Source of the DNA: a virus
Virus record (IMG/VR): IMGVR_UViG_3300042344_000393
Coordinates: 1 to 24,939 of that record
Reading direction: 5' to 3' (one strand)
DNA length: 24,939 nucleotides
In this document: in pieces, positions 5,579-24,939 of the stretch
How the letters are laid out: the number at the start of each line of letters is the position of its first letter
Numbering within the stretch: position 1 is the stretch's first letter
Translations under genes and position numbers: made by a program
The notes under the pieces: model-generated
The model's database searches: none
Told to the model about the DNA's origin: nothing
The model's input: the letters and a program-made list of their open reading frames with translations, nothing else

Positions 5579-8500
5579 TTAGTCGAAAATTCCCGGCGGA
5601 TTGCCGCCGTTTGCCTTCGCGATGGCGACCAGTTCACTGAGCGACGCGCTCTGCTTCTGGAGTTCCACGAGGTTCTGGTTGCGGGCCGAGTCGTCGCCCC
5701 GCAGGAGGCGGTTGAGTTCCGAGGCTCCTTGAACCGTCGAAACGTCGGTGGCCTGGAGGGCCGCCCGCGACGGGCCTTGGAGGACGGCGTTCTGCACCTC
5801 GTCGGCGAGGTTGAATATGGCGGGGGCGGCTTGGCGCTGGGCGTCTTCGACCGCGCGGCGCTGGGCGGCTATGAGGGCCACTTCGTTGTCCTCGGCACCG
5901 CCAGGCAGAGCCTCGAAGTTCGCCCGAATGTCACGAAGCGTCCCGGCAAGTTCCTCGCCAGCGCGCTGGGCAGGAGTCGCCGCAGCCTGCCGGCCACGCT
6001 CTGCCGACTGCCTCCGCCGCTCCTCGAAGGTGCTGTTGTCGCGGGCTTGGCGAACGGCAGGGTCGTTGTCAACGGCCCGCTGGACGGCGGCTTCGTTCTC
6101 GGCGCGGAGCCGCTCGCGCTGTGCAATCAACTGCTCTCTCTGGCCTGGCGCAAGGACGCCTGTGCTTGCCAGTTGACTGTCGATCGATGCGGCCTCCATC
6201 TCTCGCCTCTGAACCTCCCCGTCCTGCCTTGCCCGTTCTTCGGCGAGTGCCGTCTCCCGGCGAACGTTGTCCCTTAGCTCGCGCTGCCGTCCGAGGTCGC
6301 GCTCTGCGCGAGCCCGCTCCGGGGACGGGTTACCCCGCGGGACTCCCCTCTCAAGGTCGTCGCCACGCGCTTGGTCGGCGGCAGCCTGAGCCGACTGGAA
6401 GTTGCTCTCGGCCTCCTGTCGAACCCTGTCGAACGCCGACGCGAAGAGTTCGACGGATCGTCGAGCGGCGTCGACAGCCTTCACCTCGCGGTCGCGGGCG
6501 TTGATGGCGCCCTGAATCTTGCGGACTTCTTCCTGGGCTTTCTGGGCGGACTGGAGGTCGCCGCCAGAACCGGACTCTCTCGCTCGCTGTTGCGCGCCAG
6601 CAAGTTCACTCTGAGCCTCTTGCAGCCTCTCAGTCAAGCCGTCAAGTTGCGTCTGCAAGCCGACTGCCCCTGGGACGCCTGCCTCGATTGCGTCGGCAAC
6701 CTTTCCCTGCGCAAGCCCGATCTGTTTGGCGGCGGCGATGGCTGACTTGGAGACTTCGATCTCGAGGTTGTTGGCGGCGGCAGTGGCTACATCTTGCTCC
6801 AAAAGAAGTATCGTCTCTGTCAGCGCAACGACTTGGCGACGACGCTCCGCATTGGCCGCCGACTCGTCAAACCCAAAGAAGCCACTGTTCGCTTGAATTT
6901 CTCTGTTTAAATCATCCCTCTGAGCCCGAATTCGGTTTGCTTCCTGTTGGGATGCCTGACCTCTCGGAAGACCAGCAACCCTTGCCACGGCAGCGGCCCT
7001 GTCTTGCTCGGCCCTCCTTCTCAACTCCTCAATCTCTACTTCGGCGCGCCTTTGTGCGCCTCCAGCACCTTGGCCCGCACGGGATGCGTTCTCTCTGAGC
7101 TGCGCCTCGTCGATCGCGAGTCGTGCATTGACGGCCGTCACGGCTGCATCGGCCGCCGATATCCCTGGGCGAGAATTGATTCTGTCTAATGCTTGACGCT
7201 CGCGATTCCTGGCGTCGTTGATGTCGAGTCCCAACCTGATGCGTTCACCGGGGTCTTCGGCTCGCTGAAGCTGTGCCTCGCGGGCGGCGATGATGCCTCG
7301 CTCGCGCTGCACGGCAGGGTCAAGTGCCGCAGCTTGCTCTTGGTTAAACTCTCTCTGCTTCTTGCGGATGTCGTCTAGCTGCTTCTGGAACTGAGCAGCG
7401 TCTGCGCCGGGCTTGGAAAAGCCGATACGCCCGATCTCGTCGGCGATGGCCCGGAACGCGCCGGCCAGGTCTTCGACCAATGACTTCTGGCGAGCCAAGG
7501 CATCGTTGAGCGAGCGAAGCCTGTCCTCGGTGCCGACGGAAGCATTCTGCCACCTGATGTACGCGGCGATGAGCTGGGCGGTAATGGTTACCGCCACGCC
7601 GGCGATGAGTCCGTTCGTGCCGCCGAGGACGAACCCCAACTGGGAGATGTTGTTGCCAGCGGCGCGAATCCGCTGGTCAAGGCCGCCCGTGACGCTGAAG
7701 AAGTCCTCGACGGCGAAGACGGCCTGCTGGACGCCGAGTCCGATGTTGCCGAAGGCGCCGCGGCCGATGTCGCCGGCGCGCTGGAATTGGCGATTGAGCC
7801 TATTCGGCGAGATGCCTGCGGCGGCGGCGGCGGCCCGTATGGCGTCTTGGGCAACGCCATTGATCTGACGCCTCGTCTGCTCGAGGTCGATCGTGCCGCT
7901 GTCGGCCGCTGTGGCTATCGCCGTGCGGAGCCTGTTGAAGGCATCCAGCGCCGGCCCTCGCGCCTGCGTCGAGACGCCGGAGAGAGTCCGTTGCAGAACC
8001 TGTAGCTGCGCGGTGTACCCTTGCAGAGACTGAGCCTGAAGTCCGAACTCGAGGCCGCGGCGACCTTCGCCGCCGAACTGCTGGCCGAAGTTGAGAGCCC
8101 GCTGCGACCGTGCGACGCGCTGCTCAAAACGCTCGGCCTCGTTGGCGGCGTTTCTGATCTGGGCGGCCGTGGCCCCGAACCCCTGTCGGGCCAGGGTTGA
8201 CGCCTGGTCGGTCGCCCTCTGGAGGGCGGGGATCAATGCCGTCCGCAGCGGGTCGGGGAGCGTGTCGAGTTGCTGGCGAGCGGCGGTGACGCGGTTGATG
8301 ACGTTGTCGACCTGGCGGCCGACCTCAAGCTGACCGCCCAAAGGCCCGGCGCCGCCGGGGATGTCGCCGCCCATCCGCGAGCGGGCCTGACGCTCAAGGT
8401 CGCCTGCGGTGTCGATTGGCGTGGCTCGCCGAGAGAAACGGCCCTGGGCCTCGGCGATTTCGGCATCCCGCCGGCGGCGTTCCTCTTCCTGCCTGAGACG

Positions 8501-9538
8501 GAGCAGATCGCCGACCGGCGTGGCCCGTCTGGAGAACTGGCCTTCTGCGGCAGCGATTTCGGCATCCCGCCGGCGGCGTTCCTCTTCCTGCCTGAGACGG
8601 AGCAGATCGCCGACCGGCGTGGCCCGTCTGGAGAACTGGCCTTCTGCGGCAGCGATTTCGGCGTCTCTTTGTCGGATCGCTTCAGCCGCCGCGGGCGCCG
8701 CCACTGCGGCGTCAAGGGACTCTGAAAGCTCGCCTGACCGCCTGATCAGCCGAGTAAGCCTCTGCTCCGCTGCCGCCGTGTCGATGTTCAGGATGCGGCG
8801 ACTCTCGATGGTTGCCTGAACACGCTGGATCAGGTCATCAAGCCTCGCCAATTGCTGAACAGACCGGCCCACAGACCCGTCGTCAAGGACGCTCGCAGCC
8901 GCGCCCTGCGCCCGATTTCTTGCCGCCGCCGAAGCGGCCAGCGAGTCCCTGACTCGCGGGGCGACGAACGCCAGTTCACGCCCCCGCGGCCCGCTGCCTG
9001 CGATTGCCGACGCCTCCGCCAGCCTGTCGGCGGCCTGCGCTGCCTGCTCGGCCTTGAGGCGGATTCGCTCAAAGCTCCTCTCGCCAACAGTGCCACCGCG
9101 ATTCAGCACAGCCGACAAGTTTTCGGCGCTTCGCTGGGCCGACCTCATGGCGGGCTCGAAGGCCGTCTGGACGCTGGCCGAAAGGCGCTCCACCGTCCTC
9201 GCTGCGGCGCCCAGCGGCTGGTTGACCTCAGAGGCCGCTCGCTGAATCCTCTTGAACTGCTCGACCGCCTGAGTCAGCGACGCGAAGGTGGATGTGTCGA
9301 ACCCCTTGAACGACAGCCGCTGCGACGCGACCGCTTGGAGAGCCCGCGACACCTTCTGCGACTCGGTGTAGATGCCCCGAAGAGAAGTCGCCGCAGACCG
9401 CTCTGCCGACTTGAGCGATGACTCCATCGCCGACGCGAACGAGCGAACCTCCTTCGCCGACGCATTCAACTTGCTGTTGAAGTCGGAGGTGTTCGCCGTT
9501 ACCAGCGCCGAGATTTTGCCGAGATACGCTTTTGCCAT
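5579..9538 (-). CDS. Tail tape measure protein (1319 aa)
   Basis: This is the longest gene, placed right after the G/GT chaperone pair as in siphoviruses generally. Tape measure proteins set tail length and are packed by the G/GT chaperones inside the tail tube. The sequence is overwhelmingly helical and rich in Ala, Arg, Gln and Glu, with long coiled-coil stretches from residue 10 to about 600 and again from about 690 onward. One hydrophobic segment lies near residues 635-655 (GGTNGLIAGVAVTITAQLIA), which is usual for the membrane-interacting part. A 33-residue unit containing AEGQFSRRATPVGDLL is present twice without change near residues 293-358, followed by a diverged third copy. ATG 9538 has AAGGA and GAGG just upstream and lies 4 nt after the T stop. 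No peptidase or lytic domain was recognised. Confidence 0.93.
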   Translation of the reverse strand: MAKAYLGKISALVTANTSDFNSKLNASAKEVRSFASAMESSLKSAERSAATSLRGIYTESQKVSRALQAVASQRLSFKGFDTSTFASLTQAVEQFKRIQRAASEVNQPLGAAARTVERLSASVQTAFEPAMRSAQRSAENLSAVLNRGGTVGERSFERIRLKAEQAAQAADRLAEASAIAGSGPRGRELAFVAPRVRDSLAASAAARNRAQGAAASVLDDGSVGRSVQQLARLDDLIQRVQATIESRRILNIDTAAAEQRLTRLIRRSGELSESLDAAVAAPAAAEAIRQRDAEIAAAEGQFSRRATPVGDLLRLRQEEERRRRDAEIAAAEGQFSRRATPVGDLLRLRQEEERRRRDAEIAEAQGRFSRRATPIDTAGDLERQARSRMGGDIPGGAGPLGGQLEVGRQVDNVINRVTAARQQLDTLPDPLRTALIPALQRATDQASTLARQGFGATAAQIRNAANEAERFEQRVARSQRALNFGQQFGGEGRRGLEFGLQAQSLQGYTAQLQVLQRTLSGVSTQARGPALDAFNRLRTAIATAADSGTIDLEQTRRQINGVAQDAIRAAAAAAGISPNRLNRQFQRAGDIGRGAFGNIGLGVQQAVFAVEDFFSVTGGLDQRIRAAGNNISQLGFVLGGTNGLIAGVAVTITAQLIAAYIRWQNASVGTEDRLRSLNDALARQKSLVEDLAGAFRAIADEIGRIGFSKPGADAAQFQKQLDDIRKKQREFNQEQAAALDPAVQRERGIIAAREAQLQRAEDPGERIRLGLDINDARNRERQALDRINSRPGISAADAAVTAVNARLAIDEAQLRENASRAGQGAGGAQRRAEVEIEELRRRAEQDRAAAVARVAGLPRGQASQQEANRIRAQRDDLNREIQANSGFFGFDESAANAERRRQVVALTETILLLEQDVATAAANNLEIEVSKSAIAAAKQIGLAQGKVADAIEAGVPGAVGLQTQLDGLTERLQEAQSELAGAQQRARESGSGGDLQSAQKAQEEVRKIQGAINARDREVKAVDAARRSVELFASAFDRVRQEAESNFQSAQAAADQARGDDLERGVPRGNPSPERARAERDLGRQRELRDNVRRETALAEERARQDGEVQRREMEAASIDSQLASTGVLAPGQREQLIAQRERLRAENEAAVQRAVDNDPAVRQARDNSTFEERRRQSAERGRQAAATPAQRAGEELAGTLRDIRANFEALPGGAEDNEVALIAAQRRAVEDAQRQAAPAIFNLADEVQNAVLQGPSRAALQATDVSTVQGASELNRLLRGDDSARNQNLVELQKQSASLSELVAIAKANGGNPPGIFD
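8462..8659 (-). repeat. Two identical 99-bp tandem copies inside the tape measure gene
   Basis: The blocks 8462-8560 and 8561-8659 read identically, and the period of 99 bp keeps the frame (33 residues). A third, diverged copy adjoins them on the low-coordinate side (about 8415-8461 and beyond), where the protein reads AEIAEAQGRFSRRATPI. Identity at synonymous positions suggests a recent duplication. 33 residues equals three hendecads, so the duplication keeps a coiled-coil register. Confidence 0.95.
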
Positions 9539-15617: not shown

Positions 15618-16961
15618 TCACGAGGCCGCCGACTTGAGGGCGACCACGGGGCCGGCCTCGCTCGTCGAGCCGAGGGTGTGGTGGTTGATGTCGAACCGCA
15701 TGGTGCCCTGGAGCAGCACCTGATCGGTGGTGGCGTAGACCTGGTCGTACAGCCGCACCGAGAAGTCACGCCGCTTGGCGTAGATGCTCGAGAGGCCGAG
15801 GTTGCCGAAGAGCACCTTGACCTTGCTGGCGTCGGCGCCGAGGGTGCTGTTCATCACATGCACCATCCGCACCGGGTAGCCGAGGAACGTCTCGCCGGCC
15901 GCCGACCCGATCTCGCTGACGGTGTTGCCACCGGCGGCGTACTTCAGGCGAGCGATGCTGGCGGCGTAGCCGGCGGGGCTGACGTACCAGGCCGCGCCCT
16001 GGCGGGCGTAGATCGGCAGCTTGCCCATCGCACCGAGGAAGTCCTCGAGGTCGAGCGTCTCGAAGCCGGTGTTGCCGCTGGCGGCGGTGTGAACCGACGC
16101 CGTGTGGCTGCCGTTGTCGATCTTCGACACGATCCCGCGGATGCCGCCGAAGCTCGAGCCGCCATCACCGATCCACCCGCAGGTGTCGACGGTGTAGGCC
16201 AGCGAGGTGCTGAACTCCTGGGCACAGGCGTCGGCGATCGACACCACGGCGTCCTCGACGACCTCGGAACTCATGCGGCAGGCCACCGCGAGCTTCTTGG
16301 CCGTCAGCGAGACGTTGCCGTAGGTCGGCTCGCTCTCGGTGATGGCAGAGCCTTCGCCGATGAAGTAGGCCGACGTCCCGGTGAGCCGCTTGGGGATCAC
16401 CAGGGTGTCACGGGCCATCGACACGTTCTCGGCGGCGCCGGGGAAGGTGCCGTAGGTTTCGACGAGCCGGATCACGCGGGCGGCGAACTCCTCGGGGACG
16501 AGCGCGCCACCGGCCGAGTTGCTGCCCTCGTTGAGGGCGCGGCCCTCGACGCCGTGGTCACGGCACCACCGGAGGTCGTCGGCGTTCTTGAACACGACGC
16601 CGCGAATCCACCGGCCGCAGCGGTACGCCTGCTCGACGGCCTCGGGGCTGTCGTTGAAGGCCCGCAGGCTCGTGTGATGCGGGTAGATCGCCCGAATCTC
16701 GGTCTTCTTGGGCTGCTCCGGCTCGACGGCCACCGGGGTCGGCGCGGGGGCGGCCTTCTCGACCACCGAACGCAGTTCCGCCTCCTTGGCGGCGAGCTTG
16801 CCCTCGAACTCGAGGTCGGTCTTGACGGTGTCGCACTCGTCGGAGAGCCGACGAAGCTCGGAGGTCTGGTCTTCCGACCGCTCGGCCACAGAGGCCAGTT
16901 CGTTCATCCGCGCGGCGATGGCCGCGGCACGATCCTGAAGACGCTTGAGGTTGCTCGCCAT
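15618..16961 (-). CDS. Major capsid protein, HK97 fold, with N-terminal scaffolding domain (447 aa)
   Basis: ATG 16961 has GGAG 9 nt before it. The frame is open for 33 more codons upstream, but that stretch is non-protein-like and lies in a structured leader. Residues 1 to about 75 form a coiled coil (NLKRLQDRAAAIAARMNELA onward), which is the delta domain that acts as built-in scaffold and is removed by the prohead protease. From about residue 130 the HK97 fold elements follow: GALVPEEFAARVIRLVETYG, VIPKRLTGTSAYFIGEGSAI, the spine helix AVVSIADACAQEFSTSLAYT, GETFLGYPVRMV, and the late VLFGNLGLSSIYAKRRDFSV and VLLQGTMRFDI. The exact cleavage site is not certain. Order protease-capsid matches the family. 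Confidence 0.96.
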   Translation of the reverse strand: MASNLKRLQDRAAAIAARMNELASVAERSEDQTSELRRLSDECDTVKTDLEFEGKLAAKEAELRSVVEKAAPAPTPVAVEPEQPKKTEIRAIYPHHTSLRAFNDSPEAVEQAYRCGRWIRGVVFKNADDLRWCRDHGVEGRALNEGSNSAGGALVPEEFAARVIRLVETYGTFPGAAENVSMARDTLVIPKRLTGTSAYFIGEGSAITESEPTYGNVSLTAKKLAVACRMSSEVVEDAVVSIADACAQEFSTSLAYTVDTCGWIGDGGSSFGGIRGIVSKIDNGSHTASVHTAASGNTGFETLDLEDFLGAMGKLPIYARQGAAWYVSPAGYAASIARLKYAAGGNTVSEIGSAAGETFLGYPVRMVHVMNSTLGADASKVKVLFGNLGLSSIYAKRRDFSVRLYDQVYATTDQVLLQGTMRFDINHHTLGSTSEAGPVVALKSAAS

Positions 16962-17126
16962 GATGGCCTGCTCCGTATTGAGCCGGCCAGGCGGGCATGG
17001 AGATGCGCGACGGCCGGCGGGGTGTTGATCCCGCAAGCGCGCCGCGCCTTGCATCCGCAAGACACTCGCACTGCTCTCGCGACATCCATCGCGAGCGTTG
17101 TGTCTACTTGTAGGCTACCGCGTCGA
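16962..17126 (-). promoter_or_regulatory. Structured leader of the capsid gene
   Basis: This 165-nt gap between protease and capsid genes contains two inverted repeats. One is a perfect 7-bp stem CTCGCGA/TCGCGAG with a 6-nt loop at 17076-17095. The other is GCCGGCC/GGCCGGC with a 23-nt spacer at 16982-17018. Capsid protein is needed in far greater amounts than protease, so this gap may hold a promoter, a processing site or an mRNA-stabilising structure. No convincing -35/-10 pair was seen, and neither hairpin is followed by a T-run. Confidence 0.5.
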
Positions 17127-18371
17127 CTACTTGCCGTGCAACGGAGTCGACATGATCGCTGCCTTCAGCGCCGCTGCCTTGCCGATGTAGTCGGTGGTAT
17201 CGACCATCGATCGCGACGCTTCGGCCTCGAGTTGCCTCACCTTCCTGGCGGCGAAGTTCTTCGCCGGAGTGCCGCCCCACAGAAGCCACGCCACGAAACC
17301 AGGCTTCTCGGCGCCGGGCGTATCCCAGCCTGCGGACTTGCTCGCCGACTCGTGCCGCGAGAACCACGCATTCATCTCGCGAACCCAGTCGGGATTCATC
17401 TCCTCGCGGCGGGCGAGGCGGTTTGCTCGGGCCACCGTCTCGGGCTTCAGCCCGTCGCCGCTCTTGCCCTCTTCGTGCAGCCGCAGGCCGCGCTTCGCCG
17501 CGGCGGCCATGCCGGCCGTCGGCTTGAGGCTGACGGCACGCTCGTCGTCGTCCATGGGCTCCGAGACGTCGGCGTGGGCCTGGAGGTCGGACATCTTCCG
17601 CCCTGTGAACAGGTCGGTTTCCTCCCACCCGCCGTCTTCCGACTCCCAGATGCGGACGAGGGCCGCGGGATCGTCGGCCGTCGCCTCGAGCGAGTACTCC
17701 GATCCCTCGTCGCCCAGGCGGCCCTCGGTCATAACGTGCTCGACGCGGCCGACGCCGCCGTCCCACGCCACGAAGTCGCCCTCGGCGAAGATGGTCGCCG
17801 CGGCCCGAACCTCGGCCGGTTCAGGCTGCGGCGACTCGGCGGCCTTCGCCATGTCCAGGGCTCGCTTGCTGACGTAAGTCTCCGTCGCCAGGTAGGCGGG
17901 GTTGTCCACGGGGCCGGCGTCGCCGAGGAAGTCGAAGCCCCGGATTTCGCGCACCATCCGGCCGCGGTCGTCCTTGTACCAGCGCTCTTTGTCGCCCTTG
18001 GTACGGAACGCGAAGCTCGATCCGCGGACGTCATTTCTCTCGATCAATTCGACGACGTCAGCGGCCGATCGGGGCGGCGAAATCTCGTACCGCAGGCCGC
18101 GGGCGTCGGAGAAGAGCCGCATCGTGCCGCTGGACGTCCGGCCGATCACGCGCTCGTGGTTGTACTTGCCGAAAACGTCGGGGTTCGACCCCAGGACTTC
18201 GTCGAAGGCGCCGGGGAGAATCCGCTCCACGAAGCCCCCCAAGTCCTGCGAGTCGGAGTTGTAGACGGCCGCGTAGCCGCGAATGACCGTGCGGCCATTC
18301 TCGTCTTCCTTGACCTCGAGGCCCGGCGCCTCCGGGTTCAGGCGGATTTCAAGTTCGCTCTGTCCGTCCAT
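17127..18371 (-). CDS. HK97-family prohead protease with two C-terminal extra domains (414 aa)
   Basis: ATG 18371 has GAGGAGG 10 nt before it; the gene overlaps the portal gene by 34 nt. Residues 1-170 are the caudoviral prohead protease domain (family U35): GYAAVYNSDSQDLGGFVERI, LPGAFDEVL, catalytic His72 in KYNHERVIGRT, catalytic Ser in VRGSSFAF (118-119), and FLGDAGPVDNPAY. Residues about 195-265 form a second small beta domain (EGDFVAWDGGVGRVEHV, then DDPAALVRIW and GWEETDLFTGRKMSDL). Residues about 280-385 form a third, helical domain (AAAKRGLRLHEEGKSGDGL to WFSRHE and AWLLWGGTPAKNFAARKV). Both extras recur in phage proteins, often joined to proteases. The enzyme cleaves the capsid delta domain and itself during head maturation. 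Confidence 0.93.
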   Translation of the reverse strand: MDGQSELEIRLNPEAPGLEVKEDENGRTVIRGYAAVYNSDSQDLGGFVERILPGAFDEVLGSNPDVFGKYNHERVIGRTSSGTMRLFSDARGLRYEISPPRSAADVVELIERNDVRGSSFAFRTKGDKERWYKDDRGRMVREIRGFDFLGDAGPVDNPAYLATETYVSKRALDMAKAAESPQPEPAEVRAAATIFAEGDFVAWDGGVGRVEHVMTEGRLGDEGSEYSLEATADDPAALVRIWESEDGGWEETDLFTGRKMSDLQAHADVSEPMDDDERAVSLKPTAGMAAAAKRGLRLHEEGKSGDGLKPETVARANRLARREEMNPDWVREMNAWFSRHESASKSAGWDTPGAEKPGFVAWLLWGGTPAKNFAARKVRQLEAEASRSMVDTTDYIGKAAALKAAIMSTPLHGK

Positions 18372-19942
18372 GTCGCCGTAACCTCCTCGTAGGGTTTGCC
18401 ACTGCGGTGGCAATCCAGAAGCAAATCCCGCGATCCGTCGATCCACGACGTCACGAAGTCTTCGATGTCTCGGCCGGTCGCCGTGGCGGCGTCGCAGAGT
18501 TCCGTCCGCATCCGCTGCCCGTGGGCCTCGAACCAGGCCGCAAGTTTGGCCGGTTTGTTCCGCCGCTCCAGGATGCCGTCGGCCTCGATCGCGGCGAGGC
18601 GTCGAAGCGTCGAAGTGAAGACGATTTCGGCGGCGTCACGCTGGCTGGGCTCGGCGTCGTCGGCCGCCGCCTGGGCCTCCTTCGTGGCCGGTTGCGTGGC
18701 CGGTTCGTCCTGCGGCTGCTCTGACACCTTCGTCGTCGCCGCCGTCGGGTTGCCGGGGGTGTAGTTCTCGAGCAGTTGCATATTGACCTGGACGAACCGC
18801 TTGTCGCCGCCATCGACGGGGTTGTAGCCCAGTTGCTGCCGCACCTCGTTGGTCGAGAAGACGCCCAGGTTCCACATCTCCCGCAGGAACGACGACCGGG
18901 CGTTGAAGTCGCCCACCAGAAGCGCCGAAACGTCGAACTGGGCGAAGTACTTCTTGTCGTCCACCACGAGGTCGCGACGGCACGCAGCCTCGAAGCGTCG
19001 AAGGTGCGGGACGAGCGTGAACGTCACGAAGTCGATGGCCTGCTGCTCGACCGACGAGTACGACGATTTCGTCAGGTCGCCGATCATGTAGGCCGGAACC
19101 CGCGTCGCGCGTGCCACCTCCTCGATCTGGTAGCGGCGTGTCTCGATGAGGCGATTGGTGTCGTTGTTGAGCGACAGCTCCTTGACATGGGTGCCGTGGG
19201 GCAATACTGCCGTCTTGTAGGCATTGGTGGGGCCGTTGCCGTGGATGTCGTTCCACTGCTCGCGGAGCCGCTGGAGCGTCTCGGGCTTCAGCGGCTGATC
19301 GACTTCGATGACCGACCCCGGCCTGGCCCCATTCCCGAAGAATGCGCTCGAGTGCAGTTCCGTCGCCCTCGCCAGCGCGATGGCGTCCCGCATCAGCACC
19401 GTCGGGATGTAGCAGTTGACGCCGTCGGGGGAGAGGCCGCGGTAGGCGAAGACCTCGTCCTGCCGGTAGTACGTCGGCGTCGGCTTGTCGGGCTCCTGGT
19501 AGGCGTACCGCAGCCGGCCGTTCTTCAGCCGTTCGGGCTTCATCCGCGACGGATGCAGCGGGATGAGCTGATCGACGGCCCCGCGCCGGCCGGGCTTGAT
19601 GTGGGCGTAGCCGACGCCCCACAGCATGTGCCACGACTGCATGAGTTCCTTGAACTCGAACGACGTCATCCACTCGTTCGGCTCGTAGGCCAGGATGTCG
19701 TAGAGCGGGTGGCCCTCGGCGATCCGCTTGCCGTCCGGCGTCCGCTCGTAGAGGTGCAGGGGGAGGCTGGCGACCGACTCGCTGACGACCTTGACGGCGG
19801 CCAGGAACGCGCTGCACTGGAGGCTTGCCTCCGGCGAGACGTAGACGCCGGCGGCCGTCTTCCGCTGCTCGACGATCTCCTCGAACACGCGGGAGATGCC
19901 GGAGCGCATTTCGACGATGTCTTCGATGTCTTCTTCGGGCAT
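18338..19942 (-). CDS. Portal protein, HK97 type (534 aa)
   Basis: ATG 19942 follows the large terminase stop by 4 nt, with no clear ribosome binding site, so translation may depend on coupling. Family marks: LQCSAFLAAVKVVSESVASL, PLHLYERTPDGKRI, AYEPNEWMTSFEFKELM, LLWGVGYAHIKPGRRG-like segment near residue 110, VFAYRGLSPDG, and the PAYMIGDLTKSSYSSVEQQA element, then TLVPHLRRFEAACRRDLV. The 12-subunit portal sits at one capsid vertex, and DNA passes through it. From about residue 400 the chain continues with a low-complexity linker (TAATTKVSEQPQDEPATQ) and a helical tail of about 100 residues. This is longer than minimal portals. Confidence 0.95.
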   Translation of the reverse strand: MPEEDIEDIVEMRSGISRVFEEIVEQRKTAAGVYVSPEASLQCSAFLAAVKVVSESVASLPLHLYERTPDGKRIAEGHPLYDILAYEPNEWMTSFEFKELMQSWHMLWGVGYAHIKPGRRGAVDQLIPLHPSRMKPERLKNGRLRYAYQEPDKPTPTYYRQDEVFAYRGLSPDGVNCYIPTVLMRDAIALARATELHSSAFFGNGARPGSVIEVDQPLKPETLQRLREQWNDIHGNGPTNAYKTAVLPHGTHVKELSLNNDTNRLIETRRYQIEEVARATRVPAYMIGDLTKSSYSSVEQQAIDFVTFTLVPHLRRFEAACRRDLVVDDKKYFAQFDVSALLVGDFNARSSFLREMWNLGVFSTNEVRQQLGYNPVDGGDKRFVQVNMQLLENYTPGNPTAATTKVSEQPQDEPATQPATKEAQAAADDAEPSQRDAAEIVFTSTLRRLAAIEADGILERRNKPAKLAAWFEAHGQRMRTELCDAATATGRDIEDFVTSWIDGSRDLLLDCHRSGKPYEEVTATWTDRANLKSA

Positions 19943-19946
19943 TACG

Positions 19947-21449
19947 CTAGATCAGTAGGATTTGCGGGTCGTCTTCGCCACCGTTGTTCTCCGCACTCAA
20001 GACCCCCAGCGGCATGATCAGGGCCACGGCGGCGTCGATCCTCGCGGTCGAGTGCGACTGGCTCTTCGTGGGCTTGATGTTGCCGGCGTCGTCCTGCTTG
20101 ACTTGCATATTGCTGATGTGCAGGGCGAGCGGCGGGTTGCCTCCATGCCTTATCTTCCGGCCCAACACGGCGGTTTCGAGCAGCTTCGTAGGCGCCGAGA
20201 GGCTGGCGTAGCCCTGCCCATACGGCTTGACGTCGATGCCCTCGTTGACCAACTGAGTCGTCAAGTGGGTCGCATTCCACCTGTCGATAGCGACAGACCG
20301 CACCACGTTCTTCTCTGCAAACGAGAGAACGTAGTCGCGAACCACATCGTAATCCGTCACGTTTCCATCTGTTAGTGTAACAAAACCGTCTCTGGCCCAT
20401 TGGCGATACGGTGCTTCGTCCCTGTCGGCGTTCTCCTCGGGGATGAAGAGATGCGCGAAGACGTCGTAGGTGCCGTCCTCGTCGGGCCACACCGCGCAGA
20501 ATGCCGTCGTGTCGCTGGTGCTCGACAAGTCGAGGCCGCACCAGCACGGCCGGCCGTCGGTCGGCCGCAGCGGGGCGTTGCAAGCCTCCCACTGGCCGGT
20601 GCGGAAGAAGCGATTGGCCCCGTTGCTCACCCACTGGTTCAGGTACAGCGTCCGAAACTTGATCTCCTCCGCGACGCTCTCGCGGGCCAGCATCGCCTCG
20701 CGCTCCATGAACTCCTTGCGGACGGTGATGCCGTAGTTCGGGTTGGCCTTCTTCCAGGTGGCCTCCGCGAAGATGTCGTCGTCCTCCTCGGCCGCGAAGA
20801 TGCAGGGCAGGAAGGTGGGGTCTTGGATGATCCCGTCGCGAACCTTCATCGCCCGCTGCCACTCTTCGTAGCACGGCCCGATGCGATCCATGCCGGCCGT
20901 GGTCACATAGATGACCAGCGGCTCATCCCGCATGCCCATACCGCTCTCGAGCACATCGACCAAATCCCGGTTGGGCTGCACATGATACTCGTCCACCACG
21001 ACGACACTCGGATTGAAGCCGTGCTTGCCCTTGTGCTCGCTGGAAAGAAATTGGATGGTGGAATTCTTACTGGGGATGACGATCGACCCCTTGAATATCT
21101 TCGACCGCCGTTGCAGGCCGGGGCAGGATTCGATGAACCTCGAGGCCGCCGTGAACAGGAGGCTGGCCTGCTTGCGATCGCCGGCCGCGATGAGAATCTG
21201 GCCGCCGTCGTCGCCGAAGAAACCCTCGTAGGCGCCGATCAGGGCGCAGGTCGCGGTCTTGCCAGCCTTCCGCGGCACCGCCAGGAGGGATCGCTGGTAC
21301 TGCCGCCGGCCGTCAGGCCGCTTCGTCCCGTAGAGGGCGCGAAGATAGTCCTCCTGCCACGGCTGGAGGGTGAACGGCTTCCCTGCGAATCTCCCTTCGC
21401 TGTGCCGCAGCCACGACGCGAACTCGCAGATGTCAGGCTTGCTTTCCAA
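19947..21449 (-). CDS. terL: Terminase large subunit (500 aa)
   Basis: This is the packaging motor. The ATPase domain shows the Walker A-type VPRKAGKT (residues 58-65), a Walker B VVVVDEYH (149-156) and the coupling motif VTTAG near 183. The nuclease domain has acidic residues in GLDLSS (Asp307), AIDRW (Asp389) and RIDAAVALIM (Asp472), as expected for the RNase H-like fold. Length and order match the HK97/TerL family of siphoviruses. The frame must start at TTG 21449, giving MESKPDICEFASWLRHSEGR. It overlaps the small terminase gene by 17 nt, and no later start keeps the conserved N-terminus. The weak start suggests low or coupled expression. Confidence 0.96.
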   Translation of the reverse strand: MESKPDICEFASWLRHSEGRFAGKPFTLQPWQEDYLRALYGTKRPDGRRQYQRSLLAVPRKAGKTATCALIGAYEGFFGDDGGQILIAAGDRKQASLLFTAASRFIESCPGLQRRSKIFKGSIVIPSKNSTIQFLSSEHKGKHGFNPSVVVVDEYHVQPNRDLVDVLESGMGMRDEPLVIYVTTAGMDRIGPCYEEWQRAMKVRDGIIQDPTFLPCIFAAEEDDDIFAEATWKKANPNYGITVRKEFMEREAMLARESVAEEIKFRTLYLNQWVSNGANRFFRTGQWEACNAPLRPTDGRPCWCGLDLSSTSDTTAFCAVWPDEDGTYDVFAHLFIPEENADRDEAPYRQWARDGFVTLTDGNVTDYDVVRDYVLSFAEKNVVRSVAIDRWNATHLTTQLVNEGIDVKPYGQGYASLSAPTKLLETAVLGRKIRHGGNPPLALHISNMQVKQDDAGNIKPTKSQSHSTARIDAAVALIMPLGVLSAENNGGEDDPQILLI

Positions 21450-21915
21450 AATACTTGTCAGTTGGGTCGTCCACGACCTTCACGGCGCCGTAGCCCAGGC
21501 GGGTGCGGTCGGCCGGGGTGAGGCCGAGGACGGTTTCCAGTTGCCGGAGCTGCTCGTGGCAGTGGTTGCTCTGCGACTGCCACTTGTTCGGCCGGCTGAA
21601 CCGTAGCGAGCCGTCGGGGGCGGTGACTTCGACGTAGCCGCAGCCTTCCTTGGCGAGTTGCATCTCGGCCTCGCGCCACCGCTCCCAGATGATCGAGTAG
21701 CGGGCGATGACCTCGACGTCACTCTCGGCCAGCGTGCCCATCCGCTGCGTGTAGCCGCAGACCAGGCTGAACATCTCCTTCGCCGCGGGGCGAAGCCACT
21801 CGGGCGGCGAGGGGAGGGCATTCAGCGGCGTGCCAAGCTCCTCGCGGGAGTTGGCCTCCTCAGAGCCTCGCAGCTTGAGTTGGTGCTTCGGTAGTGGTGC
21901 AGGGCCGCGTACCAT
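21433..21915 (-). CDS. terS: Terminase small subunit, P27 type (160 aa)
   Basis: ATG 21915 gives MVRGPAPLPKHQLKLRGSEE, the usual start of P27-family small terminases (RGxPPxPxxLKxLxG). The open frame upstream of it covers the end of the HNH gene and is excluded. Other family marks are PPEWLRPAAKEMFSLVC, LAESDVEVIARYSIIWERWREAE, PNKWQSQSNHCHEQLRQLETVLGLTPADRTRLG. The small subunit recognises the packaging site and feeds DNA to the large subunit. No good ribosome binding site precedes the ATG; a perfect inverted repeat lies just upstream. Confidence 0.93.
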   Translation of the reverse strand: MVRGPAPLPKHQLKLRGSEEANSREELGTPLNALPSPPEWLRPAAKEMFSLVCGYTQRMGTLAESDVEVIARYSIIWERWREAEMQLAKEGCGYVEVTAPDGSLRFSRPNKWQSQSNHCHEQLRQLETVLGLTPADRTRLGYGAVKVVDDPTDKYFGKQA

Positions 21916-21916
21916 C

Positions 21917-21934
21917 CACAGTAGTATCACTGTG
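21917..21934. promoter_or_regulatory. Perfect inverted repeat at the small terminase start
   Basis: CACAGT-AGTATC-ACTGTG, a 6-bp perfect dyad with a 6-nt centre, ends one base upstream of the small terminase ATG and covers the last codons of the HNH gene. It could be an operator-type protein site or a small mRNA hairpin that controls the start of terminase translation. It has no T-run and is not a terminator. Confidence 0.45.
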
Positions 21935-22931
21935 TAGGCAAGGGGGCCGCAAGGGAGTCGGACTTCTTGCAGTTGCACCTCCAGCACGCCGCCTGGACGT
22001 TGCTAGGACGATGCCCTGGGCCGGAGGGGCCGAACGACAGCGGCACTATGTGGTCGATGGTAGGGCTTCTGGGGTGTGGGGTTTCTGTGTCTCCCACCTT
22101 CGTCCACTTGGGGAGAAGCTCGCATCGGCATATCTGGCAAGTCCAACCGTCACGCCTGAAGATCGACTTCAACGGGAACGACTCGTAGTGACATCCGTAC
22201 TTCCTGCATCGGTACTTGTGGCCGCCAGATCGCATGCCCTGGTTGATGGCGTCAAGGGAGTCGTTTCCCCAGGAGTGGAACCAGACGGCTAGCTGCTCAT
22301 CCAGAGTAGAGCCGCGTCGATTTGTCAGCCGAGCACATGGGAGGCGAAGACGCCTCGCCTCGAACGCGCACTCTCTCGTGCAATATTTCCCTGAGTTCCT
22401 CCCGGTCGATCTCTTGCGGAACGGCTTCTGGCAGCACAGGCACTGTAGGGTGGCCGGCTTCCTAACGCCGATCCTCGAGGATCGGGCGCAGGCGAATGAG
22501 CAGAACGTCTGAGTTCGGCCTCTTCTCCTAAAATGCCGGCCGCACTTAGGGCATTGCTTCGTGACTCGGTGCGGCTCGTATCGGCACTTCTTGCTGCAAA
22601 ATAAGGCGTTCTTTAGCCCTGCAAACCGCTCGCCGCATCGAGCGCAAGACCTGTCGACAAGCTTTCTCCGGCTCTTGGCACGCTTCCTGCACTCACCAGA
22701 GCAGTATCGCCGTGCTCGCCCGCGTGACCTCAAGTCCTGCAACACCTCGCGACCGCATACGACGCATGGTGCTGAAATTGGCTTTGGCGGCCTGCCGTCG
22801 CTTTTCTTGTAGCACTCGCGAGAGCAGTAGACGCGCGGCCTTGCGCCTCGCGAGGGTGGAACCGGCGAGCCGCAGACTGGGCATTGCTTGCCATCCTTGG
22901 CATCTTCTCCGGCGTCTCCACGCACACCCAA
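21927..22931 (-). CDS. HNH endonuclease with five tandem zinc knuckles (up to 334 aa)
   Basis: Five treble-clef-like units of the form CxxC-(12-17)-CxxxC fill the first 190 residues: Cys17/20/36/40, 56/59/77/81, 96/99/112/116, 127/130/144/148, 164/167/184/188. The HNH domain follows: SIFRRDGWTCQICRCELLPK (Cys265/268), TIDHIVPLSFGG-like with Asp293-His294, and HRPSNVQAACWRCNCKKSD (Asn311, Cys316/319), a complete beta-beta-alpha metal motif. The start is TTG 22931 or GTG 22925; neither has a strong ribosome binding site. HNH proteins beside terminases are known partners in DNA packaging and cos cleavage in HK97-type phages. A homing-type endonuclease is the alternative. Its stop lies 11 nt before the small terminase ATG. 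Confidence 0.9.
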   Translation of the reverse strand: MGVRGDAGEDAKDGKQCPVCGSPVPPSRGARPRVYCSRECYKKSDGRPPKPISAPCVVCGREVLQDLRSRGRARRYCSGECRKRAKSRRKLVDRSCARCGERFAGLKNALFCSKKCRYEPHRVTKQCPKCGRHFRRRGRTQTFCSFACARSSRIGVRKPATLQCLCCQKPFRKRSTGRNSGKYCTRECAFEARRLRLPCARLTNRRGSTLDEQLAVWFHSWGNDSLDAINQGMRSGGHKYRCRKYGCHYESFPLKSIFRRDGWTCQICRCELLPKWTKVGDTETPHPRSPTIDHIVPLSFGPSGPGHRPSNVQAACWRCNCKKSDSLAAPLPTQ

Positions 22932-23133
22932 AGCCTACCGGCGGAGAGTATTTTCTCCAAACCGACAGGCCCAGCAAAAAGGGTACGCTCTCCGGGGCGC
23001 ACGCCCCTAGGGACATGCGGTCTGTGCTCGAAACCCCCACAACGGCGGCCCCCCTTCCTGGGGGTCGATGATGCGGCGCGTCCACACCACCGTGCGCGGC
23101 CCGCGACCGCGCGCATTCGCGTTTCCTAAGTGT

Positions 23134-23246
23134 CTAGTGGCCGCACGAACCACCACGAAACGCGGAAAACATTAGGTACACTTGACGCGATGGATTGCCG
23201 ATACTAGGCTTGTGTTCGTGCGGGCCGCGCGGCTCGCGACCACTAG
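23134..23246. repeat. Long-range inverted repeat flanking the rightward promoter
   Basis: The left arm CTAGTGGCCGCACGAAC (23134-23150) is matched in reverse complement by GTTCGTGCGG (23214-23223) and CCACTAG (23240-23246). The right arm is split by a 16-nt insert that itself contains the palindrome GCCGCGCGGC. The candidate promoter lies between the arms. Confidence 0.7.
23182..23210 (+). promoter_or_regulatory. Candidate sigma70-type promoter for the rightward module
   Basis: TTGACG (23182-23187) matches the -35 consensus in five of six places, and 17 nt further lies TAGGCT (23205-23210), a weak -10 with the key T, A and final T. Transcription from here would give a leader of about 50 nt before the ATG at 23264. 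No other good pair was seen upstream of these genes. Confidence 0.5.
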
Positions 23247-23263: not shown

Positions 23264-23623
23264 ATGAAAGCGGTTCAAGTGTGGCGGGATGGTACAGAAT
23301 GGTTTGAACTGTGGGCGGATCGGGAGGTGGTCGATATCGTATCGACCCGCGAAGAGGCGACCGCGCAGGGCGCGACCACGTTCATCGAAACCGAAGAGCC
23401 GCGTTTCTTCGTTCGCGACGAAAGCGGTCGCGGCTGGTGTGCGGAGTGGAGGTATACCGACATCACGAACGAAGAGCGCGAATACCGTGAAGAGGGAACC
23501 GATACCGACTGCGCTGGAAACGAAATAGAGTTTCAATCGTTCGGCGAATGGCTAGACTCTTCGGACGCTGGCGACACGTTCGACCATTCGGACCAGATGT
23601 ACACTGTAACCCGTATCAATTGA
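23264..23623 (+). CDS. Small acidic protein of unknown function (119 aa)
   Basis: ATG 23264 has GAAAGGA 7 nt before it. The frame is open 23 codons further upstream, but that stretch covers the promoter and has no binding site. The product is strongly acidic, with VQVWRDGTEWFELWADREVV, then FFVRDESGRGWCAEWRY and a C-terminal FGEWLDSSDAGDTFDHSDQM. It looks like a small alpha/beta protein with many aromatic residues. Phage-encoded acidic proteins of this size are often early gene products or DNA mimics, but nothing here proves that. It is the first gene of the rightward unit. The stop codon forms part of the repeated leader of the next gene. Confidence 0.72.
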   Translation: MKAVQVWRDGTEWFELWADREVVDIVSTREEATAQGATTFIETEEPRFFVRDESGRGWCAEWRYTDITNEEREYREEGTDTDCAGNEIEFQSFGEWLDSSDAGDTFDHSDQMYTVTRIN

Positions 23624-23643
23624 ACCACCACCACGAAAGGCTA
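23621..23643 (+). repeat. Repeated intergenic leader with ribosome binding site, copy 1
   Basis: TGAACCACCACCACGAAAGG followed by CTA spans the stop of the first rightward gene and the ribosome binding site (GAAAGG) of the second. The second copy at 23859-23889 has the same ends with extra ACC units. A related string (CGAACCACCACGAAACGCGG) occurs at 23146-23165, upstream of the promoter. Confidence 0.85.
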
Positions 23644-23648
23644 GAACC

Positions 23649-23861
23649 ATGCGCGACCGATTCAATGTAGAAACGTGGGATGCGAATATGCGAGCCGCAA
23701 TCGAACGTAGGGACGGGGATAGGCTCGCGGAATTGATGTACCAGAATGATCGCAACGGATGCTTTTCATACGATGATGTATGTCGCGAATTCGGCAAGAT
23801 GACGCGCGAGAAGTGGCTAGCGGGAACGATTGATTGCGCCGTCCGAATGCTGGACTATTGA
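23649..23861 (+). CDS. Small helical protein of unknown function (70 aa)
   Basis: ATG 23649 has GAAAGG 8 nt before it, within the repeated leader. The protein is mainly helical: NVETWDANMRAAIERRDGDR, LAELMYQNDRNG, then DDVCREFGKMTREKWLAGTI and a C-terminal AVRMLDY. Its layout of short helices with Asn-Gly turns resembles small regulatory proteins of phage early regions. No known family is recognised. It lies between the acidic protein and the Gp88-like gene with spacings of 25 and 34 nt, all on one transcript by appearance. Confidence 0.7.
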   Translation: MRDRFNVETWDANMRAAIERRDGDRLAELMYQNDRNGCFSYDDVCREFGKMTREKWLAGTIDCAVRMLDY

Positions 23862-23889
23862 ACCACCACCACACCACCACGAAAGGCTA
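23859..23889 (+). repeat. Repeated intergenic leader with ribosome binding site, copy 2
   Basis: The stretch runs from the stop of the second rightward gene (TGAACCACCACC) through ACACCACCACGAAAGGCTA, just before the ATG at 23896. Compared with copy 1 it has an 8-nt insertion of the ACC-type unit. Both copies put GAAAGG 6-9 nt before a start codon. Confidence 0.85.
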
Positions 23890-23895
23890 CAAAAC

Positions 23896-24768
23896 ATGAC
23901 TACCGCCATCGACACCCCCACCATCAATCGCTCCGTGCGATCCATCCTTTCCGACAACACGAAACTACGGAAACTCCCGAACGGCCAGAAAGTTATAAAT
24001 GCGGGCGTTACCCTCGCACCATCGAAACGGTCGGGCATCGTAAACGTATGTCCACACGCTACCGCCGCGTGTATCCTAGTTTGCGTGTTGTGGTTTGCGG
24101 GCCGCACCGTTACGCGCACGGTGCGGGAAGCGGCCACGAAGCGGACGCGGTTGTGGTTCTACGATCCGACCACGTTCTACGCTCGCCTCTCGCGTGAACT
24201 GGCCGCGCTCGCGCGCAAAGCGGCCCGTGATGGTGTGCGGGCATTCTGTCGCACGAACGTTGCTAGCGACATTGAACACCCGCACGAAGTGTATAGCGAT
24301 CATCCTTCGATTACGTTCTACAACTACACGAAGAACGAAGACCACGCCCGCGCATATGGTCGCGGAGAGTTGCCCGCGAACTACCACGTTTCCTATTCCG
24401 TTTCGGAGCGTACCACGTTCGCGACCGCTCGCGAATTGAACGCGGCTGGCGTGAATCTGGTGGTGGTATTCGACAGCCACTACTTCGGCCCGCTCCACCG
24501 TTTCGGTATCGTCCCCGCGACCGTTCGTTTCGTGTCGCGCACCACGGGGGAATCGTTCACGGTAGAAACCGTGGACGGGGACATTCATGATCTTCGCACG
24601 CCCGAATTCGATGGTAGGGGCGTGGTGGTCGCTCTTCGTGCGAAGAGCGGAAAGACACTCCGCGAGCGTGCGAAGTCTATGGGGTTTATCAAACAGTTTC
24701 CCGCTGGTGCGCGGTGGTTCGTCGATGAATACGTTCGCGATGGTGTCGCCATCATCGAACTAGCCTAG
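23896..24768 (+). CDS. Gp88-like phage protein (290 aa)
   Basis: ATG 23896 has GAAAGG about 9 nt upstream, within the repeated leader; an open extension of 22 codons upstream overlaps the previous gene and is excluded. The N-terminal part has NTKLRKLPNGQKVINAGVTL, then APSKRSGIVNVCPHATAACI with Cys52, Cys59 and Cys63, and a helix from REAATKRTRLWFYDP to LARKAARD. The middle has a strand-loop series: VRAFCRTNVASDIEHP, ITFYNYTKN, NYHVSYSVSE and VNLVVVFD, which looks like a barrel. This is the layout of the Gp88-type proteins widespread in phages, whose biochemical role is not established. The cysteines could bind a metal or cluster. The assignment is from memory of the family pattern. Confidence 0.65.
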   Translation: MTTAIDTPTINRSVRSILSDNTKLRKLPNGQKVINAGVTLAPSKRSGIVNVCPHATAACILVCVLWFAGRTVTRTVREAATKRTRLWFYDPTTFYARLSRELAALARKAARDGVRAFCRTNVASDIEHPHEVYSDHPSITFYNYTKNEDHARAYGRGELPANYHVSYSVSERTTFATARELNAAGVNLVVVFDSHYFGPLHRFGIVPATVRFVSRTTGESFTVETVDGDIHDLRTPEFDGRGVVVALRAKSGKTLRERAKSMGFIKQFPAGARWFVDEYVRDGVAIIELA

Positions 24769-24786
24769 TTCGCTCGCGACCGCACG

Positions 24787-24825
24787 AAGCGGCCCGCACT
24801 ACTCGCGAGAGTGTGCGGGCCGCTT
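24787..24825 (+). terminator. Strong hairpin after the Gp88-like gene
   Basis: AAGCGGCCCGCAC and GTGCGGGCCGCTT form a perfect 13-bp stem. Between them, after one unpaired T, ACTC-GCGA-GAGT makes a further 4 bp closed by a GNRA-type loop. It starts 18 nt after the stop codon. There is no T-run after it, so it is either a non-canonical terminator or a 3'-end stabiliser. Confidence 0.7.
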
Positions 24826-24832
24826 GCAATTG

Positions 24833-24939
24833 CGGGCCGCAGCATCGACCACCACGCTCGCACCAGCGGGCCGCAGCATCGACCACCACGCTCGCACCAG
24901 CGGGCCGCAGCATCGACCACCACGCTCGCACCAGCGGGC
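24833..24939. repeat. 34-bp tandem repeat array reaching the end of the window
   Basis: Three identical units of 34 bp (24833-24866, 24867-24900, 24901-24934) and the first 5 nt of a fourth. Each begins CGGGCCGCAGCATCGACC and ends CACCACGCTCGCACCAG, with the halves overlapping by one C. The GCGGGCCGC core repeats the 3' arm of the preceding hairpin, and ACCACCACG repeats the rightward gene leaders. There are no unique spacers, so this is not a CRISPR array. The true copy number is unknown because the window stops inside it. Confidence 0.95.

Follow-up and report, generated by a model that had tools for sequence, protein, structure and literature searches.

The window analyzed here is the full virus record IMGVR_UViG_3300042344_000393 of IMG/VR (24,939 bases), possibly a fragment of a larger genome, and its plus-strand gene at positions 23896..24768 encodes a 290-aa protein of the GP88 family with a cluster of three cysteines and a predicted α/β barrel. 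The explanation that we favor, with moderate confidence, is that this protein is an early enzyme resembling the radical S-adenosylmethionine (SAM) enzymes and acting in host takeover or counter-defense, with the two small open reading frames (ORFs) ahead of it, ORF1 and ORF2, as accessory genes. GP88 is a widespread and already known family, and what is new here is a concrete enzymatic hypothesis for it. No paper on GP88 function was found in a literature search that fell short of most subscription journals.

A reading made from the sequence alone had called the protein Gp88-like, and profile searches agreed: it matched PF17338 ("GP88") with an E-value of 1.1e-33 and 117.4 bits against a gathering cut-off of 24.4, covering positions 6-221 of the 230 in the profile, and phrog_1617 with an E-value of 1.1e-37. 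The cysteine cluster noticed in the same reading (CPHATAACILVC) is present and has the spacing C-x6-C-x3-C. In an alignment of 138 distinct proteins (L001, L003, and L015 were excluded as duplicates and identical sequences were merged), Cys52, Cys59, and Cys63 are kept in 138, 137, and 138 homologues, respectively, so the cysteines are near-invariant rather than degenerate. A separate alignment of mycobacterial, jumbo, Roseobacter/marine, and other phages retained all three in 14 of 14 sequences. Gly69, Asp125, Tyr163, and Ser168 are present in all 138 homologues, Asn121, Tyr144, and Arg234 in 137, Asn162 in 136, Arg119, Asp143, and Asp232 in 135, and Asp229 and Lys146 in 134; Ser124, Thr145 (in Tyr144-Thr145-Lys146), and Lys250 are also conserved, and the family residue Asp143 is an asparagine in the window protein. 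Judged from the alignment, this invariant set of polar residues looks like an enzyme active site. Four related contigs (L002, L003 (= L015), L016, and L018) allowed selection to be assessed. The ratio of nonsynonymous to synonymous substitution rates (dN/dS) of GP88 is 0.10 against L002/L003 and 0.066 against L016, and that of ORF1 is 0.12 against L002/L003 and saturated against L016. Because of the values of 0.12 and 0.10, ORF1 and GP88 are regarded as real proteins under strong purifying selection.

The fold predicted for GP88 most resembles that of radical SAM enzymes. AlphaFold2 gave a predicted local distance difference test score of 94.8 and a predicted template modeling score of 0.92 for the window protein (83-sequence alignment), and for a compact homologue of 232 aa (92-sequence alignment) the two scores were 95.5 and 0.91. 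In both models strands alternate with helices and the cysteines occupy the loop past the first core strand; the strand series that had looked like a barrel is thus predicted to form a barrel-type fold. When Foldseek candidates were compared by VIA-align, radical SAM enzymes held all of the top 20 rows for the window model (Z 4.6-6.1) and all of the top 34 for the 232-aa model (Z 4.8-6.3) before any other barrel appeared. Among the best matches are QueE, pyruvate formate-lyase activating enzyme, spore photoproduct lyase, and viperin; some entries (e.g. 7bi7, NifB) belong to the superfamily although their titles do not say so. That one superfamily tops both lists above many other barrels argues for a genuine fold signal. 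Radical-SAM-like and tRNA-guanine transglycosylase (TGT)-like folds had both been suggested from the sequence; the former is the one that the models most resemble, and the latter found no support. Against viral models, Foldseek retrieved members of the GP88 family, among them domains within proteins 995-1211 residues long and a match from a Nitrosopumilus spindle-shaped virus. A search for sequence relatives of the window protein with solved structures gave none that was credible.

A second line of evidence is a computed distant kinship with DUF5131 (PF07505, phage Gp37/Gp68), also named "three-Cys-motif protein". DUF5131 was chosen for comparison because two marine-phage GP88 genes are annotated as "Gp37/Gp68-like". 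The DUF5131 sets comprised 17 bacterial sequences from the 18 loci L191-L208 (L203 failed the cysteine filter) and nine virus-type sequences from the 16 loci L161-L176 (the remainder were duplicates or did not pass the filter), one of the nine being from an archaeal genome. With hhalign, GP88 aligned to the combined set over 114 columns with a probability of 83% and a P-value of 8.5e-6, and to the 17 bacterial sequences only with a P-value of 1.6e-5. Aligned segment pairs were V-R-L-N-G-T-S-D/F-I-N-S-M-S-D, Y-D-Y-S-K/Q-I-L-T-K, M-P-S-N-Y-H-L-T-F-S/P-I-N-A-W-L-G-V-S, and the C-terminal V-V-G-L/V-I-V-G-G. As controls, reversed-column DUF5131 profiles gave 0.10-0.27, and the best of 13 unrelated families gave 0.084. 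The cysteines of the bacterial sequences are arranged as C-x6-C-x2-C and those of the virus type as the canonical CX3CX2C. The virus-type set in turn matched radical SAM sequences (P 2.1e-5), and L161 matched TIGR04471, "radical SAM mobile pair protein A" (E 3.3e-6); the bacterial set by itself did not match radical SAM sequences (P 0.05). In a Pfam scan of 83 GP88 members, DUF5131 was not among the 25 families listed of 33. By these comparisons, the chain from GP88 through DUF5131 to radical SAM enzymes appears supported link by link and not end to end.

The third line of evidence is the position of the gene. In a phage collection of 50,697 records, two different GP88 homologues each matched 265, of which 235 are Mycobacterium phages. 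With the latter set aside, the remaining 30 records were merged into 22 distinct phages (by joining duplicate accessions, treating CM1 and RAS14 as one, and collapsing four Pelagibacter records that are equal in length). In 15 of the 22, GP88 lies at the record end pointing inward or no more than five genes past the terminase. Eleven have it within the first four genes at the record end, inward (Lo5R7ANS, HTVC115P, HTVC024P, HTVC035P, HTVC120P, HTVC134P, HTVC309P, HMO-2011, CRP-6, CRP-235, and CRP-143), and it is the very first gene in HMO-2011 (a circular record) and CRP-235; the other four (S46-C10, S42-C7, Bylgja, and TRX32-1) carry it within five genes past the terminase or maturase. In PeterPeter, the one cluster A-type mycobacteriophage record examined, gene 88 is the second from the right end, and in the other Mycobacterium records among the matches listed it is likewise a minus-strand gene close to the right end. 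The early promoter Pleft of cluster A phages has been placed at this end (PMC5712189, PMC6550527), and the right-arm genes of D29 are expressed at 15 min (PMC5712189). In cluster A mycobacteriophages GP88 thus directly follows the early promoter.

We envisage the following mechanism. The region at the right of the window would open the early genes of a tailed phage, with transcription starting at a promoter in the divergent gap and leading away from the packaging and structural block. GP88 would be a metal-cluster enzyme with a partial α/β barrel of the radical SAM type. The C-x6-C-x3-C loop past the first core strand would carry a [4Fe-4S] cluster, and SAM and a substrate would bind to the conserved polar motifs where the strands end (N-x-x-S-D, D-Y-T-K, P-x-N-Y, S-x-x-E, and D-x-x-D-x-R). 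Acting on a host target or nucleotide minutes after DNA entry, it may disable a defense or redirect a host process. Such a role in takeover or counter-defense is proposed because it is a natural one for leading genes. A fusion gene of Tunturi_5, a Tunturiibacter phage (L008, 3344-4681), in which GP88 stands behind an inorganic-pyrophosphatase (InPase) domain (PF18823, E 5.9e-34), points in the same direction; this gene is annotated as "minor head protein". InPase is a domain of polyvalent proteins (PMC5512222); that paper contains neither the term gp88 nor the term radical.

Several results weigh against this reading. GP88 lacks the canonical CX3CX2C, having C-x6-C-x3-C instead, and lacks the GGE motif, having N-x-x-S-D at the end of strand 2 instead. 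Direct comparison by hhalign with 12 MoaA-like radical SAM sequences (picked by motif from 20 loci) failed, with P-values of 0.13-0.4. The VIA-align Z scores of 4.6-6.3 are middling, and the tool warns that values below 8 may reflect a common arrangement; Foldseek gave no PDB match below an E-value of 0.001 for either model, and its top PDB rows were mixed folds for both. The link to DUF5131 comes from one pairwise method applied to motif sets of our own choosing (the 17 by cysteine motif alone), and the P-value was 0.0057 when only the nine virus-type sequences were used. As for position, seven of the 22 phages do not have GP88 in a terminal or post-terminase place. XacN1 has it at two places in its record, the first 25 kb in (L186, 3983-4735); it appears twice because it lies within the 66-kb direct terminal repeat (PMC5852040), a place that we count in favor of the positional argument. 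In RAS14 the gene is about 5 kb from the record end, in ctYwJ313 it is divergent from the structural genes as in the window, and in HTVC023P it stands between the terminase genes; Tunturi_5, DC31, and Sansa complete the seven. Enrichment near strand switches was also mild, with 35 of 47 GP88 genes against 297 of 569 control genes no more than two genes away (P 0.002), on environmental contigs with crude gene calls and with 3 of 81 GP88 ORFs dropped as unchosen by the caller. Because the chain to radical SAM enzymes is incomplete and the two defining motifs failed, we say that GP88 probably works like a radical SAM enzyme, and not that it is one.

Some of the same results favor a barrel enzyme outside the radical SAM superfamily, with cysteines that bind zinc or play a structural part and a likeness that extends to a similar partial barrel only. 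The missing canonical motif, the failed direct profile comparison, the Z scores below 8, and the mixed folds at the top of the Foldseek rows are all as this explanation expects. Against it speak the DUF5131 link with its clean controls and the fact that a single superfamily fills the top 20 and 34 rows of VIA-align although the candidates include many other barrels, and we consider it a serious possibility that is nonetheless doubtful. The main alternative to a takeover or counter-defense role is a metabolic or RNA-modifying one, in which a radical-SAM-like GP88 would help in nucleotide, cofactor, or tRNA modification. QueE, TYW1, MiaB, and RlmN are among the structural neighbors, the Sansa gene is inside a replication/methyltransferase block, and that of DC31 is in mid-genome, some kilobases from tRNA genes. 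Most GP88 copies, however, are at a leading end or behind an early promoter, and the Tunturi_5 fusion partner is a polyvalent-protein domain, which makes a metabolic helper rather unlikely. A base exchanger of the TGT type that modifies phage DNA would agree with a barrel-type model carrying cysteines and was otherwise a suggestion of the sequence-only reading. The GP88 cysteines are near the N-terminus, whereas the zinc site of TGT is C-terminal, and no TGT or DpdA row is among the Foldseek and VIA-align matches listed, which excludes nothing; this is the least probable of the explanations considered.

The radical-SAM-like early enzyme that we prefer does not have its two small neighbors as fixed partners; these had been read together with GP88 as one three-gene module. 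ORF1 (23264..23623, plus strand, 119 aa, acidic) is the first gene and ORF2 (23649..23861, plus strand, 70 aa) the second, and with GP88 they likely form a single transcript. That the three make up one dedicated system has in its favor that they are adjacent, co-oriented, and alike in composition and spacer repeats, and that L016 also has three genes in order, with a different one in the middle. ORF2, however, is present in none of the four related contigs, its slot in L016 holding an unrelated 83-aa ORF, and ORF1 is present in three (L002, L003, and L016) and absent from L018, where GP88 leads; GP88 itself is in all four, and its neighbors differ in other phages. A three-part system is accordingly very improbable. 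Linkage is lost for ORF2 and partly for ORF1, and because of this patchiness we regard it as loose, with GP88 as the constant part and ORF1 and ORF2 as exchangeable accessory genes. When viral contigs were scanned for ORF1, it turned up in the L002 and L003 contigs only. No Pfam or NCBIfam family matched ORF1 at an E-value up to 1, and a candidate role as a spanin was rejected since just weak PHROG rows were obtained; ORF2 likewise had no Pfam or NCBIfam family, and its weak PHROG rows give no identity. A spacer repeat of families D4 and D13 stands on both sides of ORF2, for which reason its slot looks like a variable cassette bounded by short repeats. The first copy (ATTGAACCACCACCAC...GAAAGGCTA; 23619..23646, plus strand) holds the ribosome-binding region of ORF2, and the second (23857..23892, plus strand) is ahead of GP88; L002 and L003 have a single spacer between ORF1 and GP88. 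Of the earlier observation, the three ORFs, their composition, the hairpin, the tandem array, and the cysteine cluster were all recovered; conservation of the three genes as a module was not. Its guess of host takeover fits the early-gene position in other phages, and nucleic acid modification, its other suggestion, is a guess.

The three plus-strand ORFs at 23264-24768 run opposite to a minus-strand block of packaging and structural genes and differ from it in composition, as had been described. Their G+C content is 0.569, and the minimum among stretches of 1505 bases in 1-22950 (sampled every 50 bases) is 0.591. TCGCGA occurs at 4.0 versus 0.87 per kb (4.6-fold denser) and GAA, on both strands, at 52 versus 32 per kb; GAA and GAG codons number 11 and 3 in GP88 against 7 and 24 in the terminase large subunit gene. 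A putative early promoter, TTGACG-17 nt-TAGGCT, lies at 23182..23210 (plus strand), within the gap that separates ORF1 from the diverging packaging genes. ACTTGAC is invariant across the five aligned upstream regions (window, L002, L003, L016, and L018), and by eye a TANNNT follows 16-17 nt past it (TAGGCT in the window, TATGTT in L002/L003, TATTCT in L016, and TACTCT in L018). A consensus promoter scan reported none at this site, with 0.8 expected; the promoter is termed putative because it was deduced from conservation and the scan was silent. A second common motif occurs 5' of the promoter-like site (23125-23137, CTAAGTGTC-TA in the window, CTAAGTGTCCA in L016, and CTAAATGTCCA in L018) and is a possible operator.

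The strong hairpin and the tandem repeats described at the 3' end were also found. The G+C-rich hairpin (24787..24825, plus strand; inverted repeat I12) has 13 perfect pairs and -35.8 kcal/mol for 24780-24832; it has no T-run and was not reported by the terminator scan. In L016 a stem of altered sequence is retained after GP88. The array at 24832..24939 consists of 34-nt units in at least 3.2 copies with 100% identity, the contig end interrupting it. Contigs end inside the same 34-nt array in the window, in L002 (5414-5585), and in L003 (5937-6097), and its copies show a G/C change between phages that is homogenized in L002/L003 except in the first L002 copy. The array of L016 is complete within its contig (9.3 copies of 35 nt) and is followed by further plus-strand ORFs, eight of which were scanned and had no PHROG match. 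In L017, whose GP88 is 48% identical, short arrays follow the gene 3' and then a primase-like gene. This setting fits an early or replication region, and that the array is an origin or regulatory site is a guess.

The minus-strand block carries terminase, portal, major head protein, tail terminator, and tail protein genes, including the terminase small subunit (21433-21987), terminase large subunit (19947-21449), portal (18338-19942), and major head protein (15618-17060). Over the terminase-portal block, L002 and L003 are 98.6-99.0% identical to the window, and L016 and L018 about 74%. Per 250 bases, identity to L003 is 97-99.6% in the structural block and 76-97% from 22951 onward; overall, sequence turnover in the early block is rapid. 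Where the near-identical structural block meets the divergent early one, an HNH/endonuclease VII-like gene (21927-22931, minus strand) with several CxxC repeats (phrog_1271, E 1e-33) adjoins the terminase small subunit gene; it is not in L002/L003, where its flanks nearly touch, and has a relative in L016. A perfect 99-nt tandem duplication at 8454-8662 (2.1 copies, 100%) lies within a 1319-aa minus-strand ORF (5579-9538), and its unit preserves the reading frame. Neither tRNA genes nor Rfam families were found in the window.

GP88 relatives are numerous in viruses and occur in cellular genomes. An alignment of 13 sequences, used to scan viral contigs, found at least 535 among 599 candidates, from which 80 were retained, and in bacterial and archaeal genomes 47 among 73; the window protein had no match in 72,556 plasmid records. 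The cellular genes nearest to that of the window, about 40% identical, are in the Planctomycetes genomes L094, L095, and L097, with a possible integrase (L097) and a possible replicative helicase (L095) nearby as judged by eye; these genes suggest integrated elements and perhaps the host group. Two contigs carry GP88 twice, about 6-7 kb apart (L042, 5088-5783 and 12386-13084; L046, 8001-8696 and 14134-14853). Among PADLOC models, the window protein matched no family, and 83 members matched four stray families, one member each, with a best E-value of 0.002. In reports on toxicity of "gp88" in overexpression screens (PMC9339283, PMC11797047), the name is a gene number and need not denote this family, and the TcmP papers (PMC12445080, PMC12429752) give just the name of the partner gene; neither set was used.

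We also advance, more tentatively, a broader proposal: GP88 may be the founder of a non-canonical radical SAM class (C-x6-C-x3-C), among the first genes expressed in phages of bacteria and probably in archaeal viruses, chemically disarming the host and sometimes fused into larger, possibly injected proteins. The hypothesis of an iron-sulfur cluster, SAM cleavage, and early action makes the long-standing GP88 puzzle testable in model phages of M. smegmatis; if it is right, phages would commonly open an infection with radical chemistry.

Compared with known systems, the window protein has the same three cysteines and motifs as the GP88 family (PF17338/phrog_1617, to which gene 88 of cluster A mycobacteriophages belongs, that of PeterPeter being a PF17338 member), and differs in its length (290 versus about 230-250 aa), one residue inserted past the third cysteine, and an asparagine for the aspartate of DYTK. 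Radical SAM enzymes such as QueE, pyruvate formate-lyase activating enzyme, spore photoproduct lyase, and viperin have the fold closest to that predicted for GP88 and share three cysteines in the loop past the first core strand, but GP88 has neither CX3CX2C nor the GGE motif and no direct profile similarity to them. DUF5131 shares colinear N-x-x-S-D, T-K-x-x-R, and P-x-N-x-x-L motifs, and its C-x6-C-x2-C differs from C-x6-C-x3-C in the spacing of the third cysteine. In its place among the first genes at T7-like genome ends, GP88 resembles leading early genes of the type of T7 gene 0.3 (Ocr); Ocr is a small DNA mimic, whereas GP88 looks like an enzyme.

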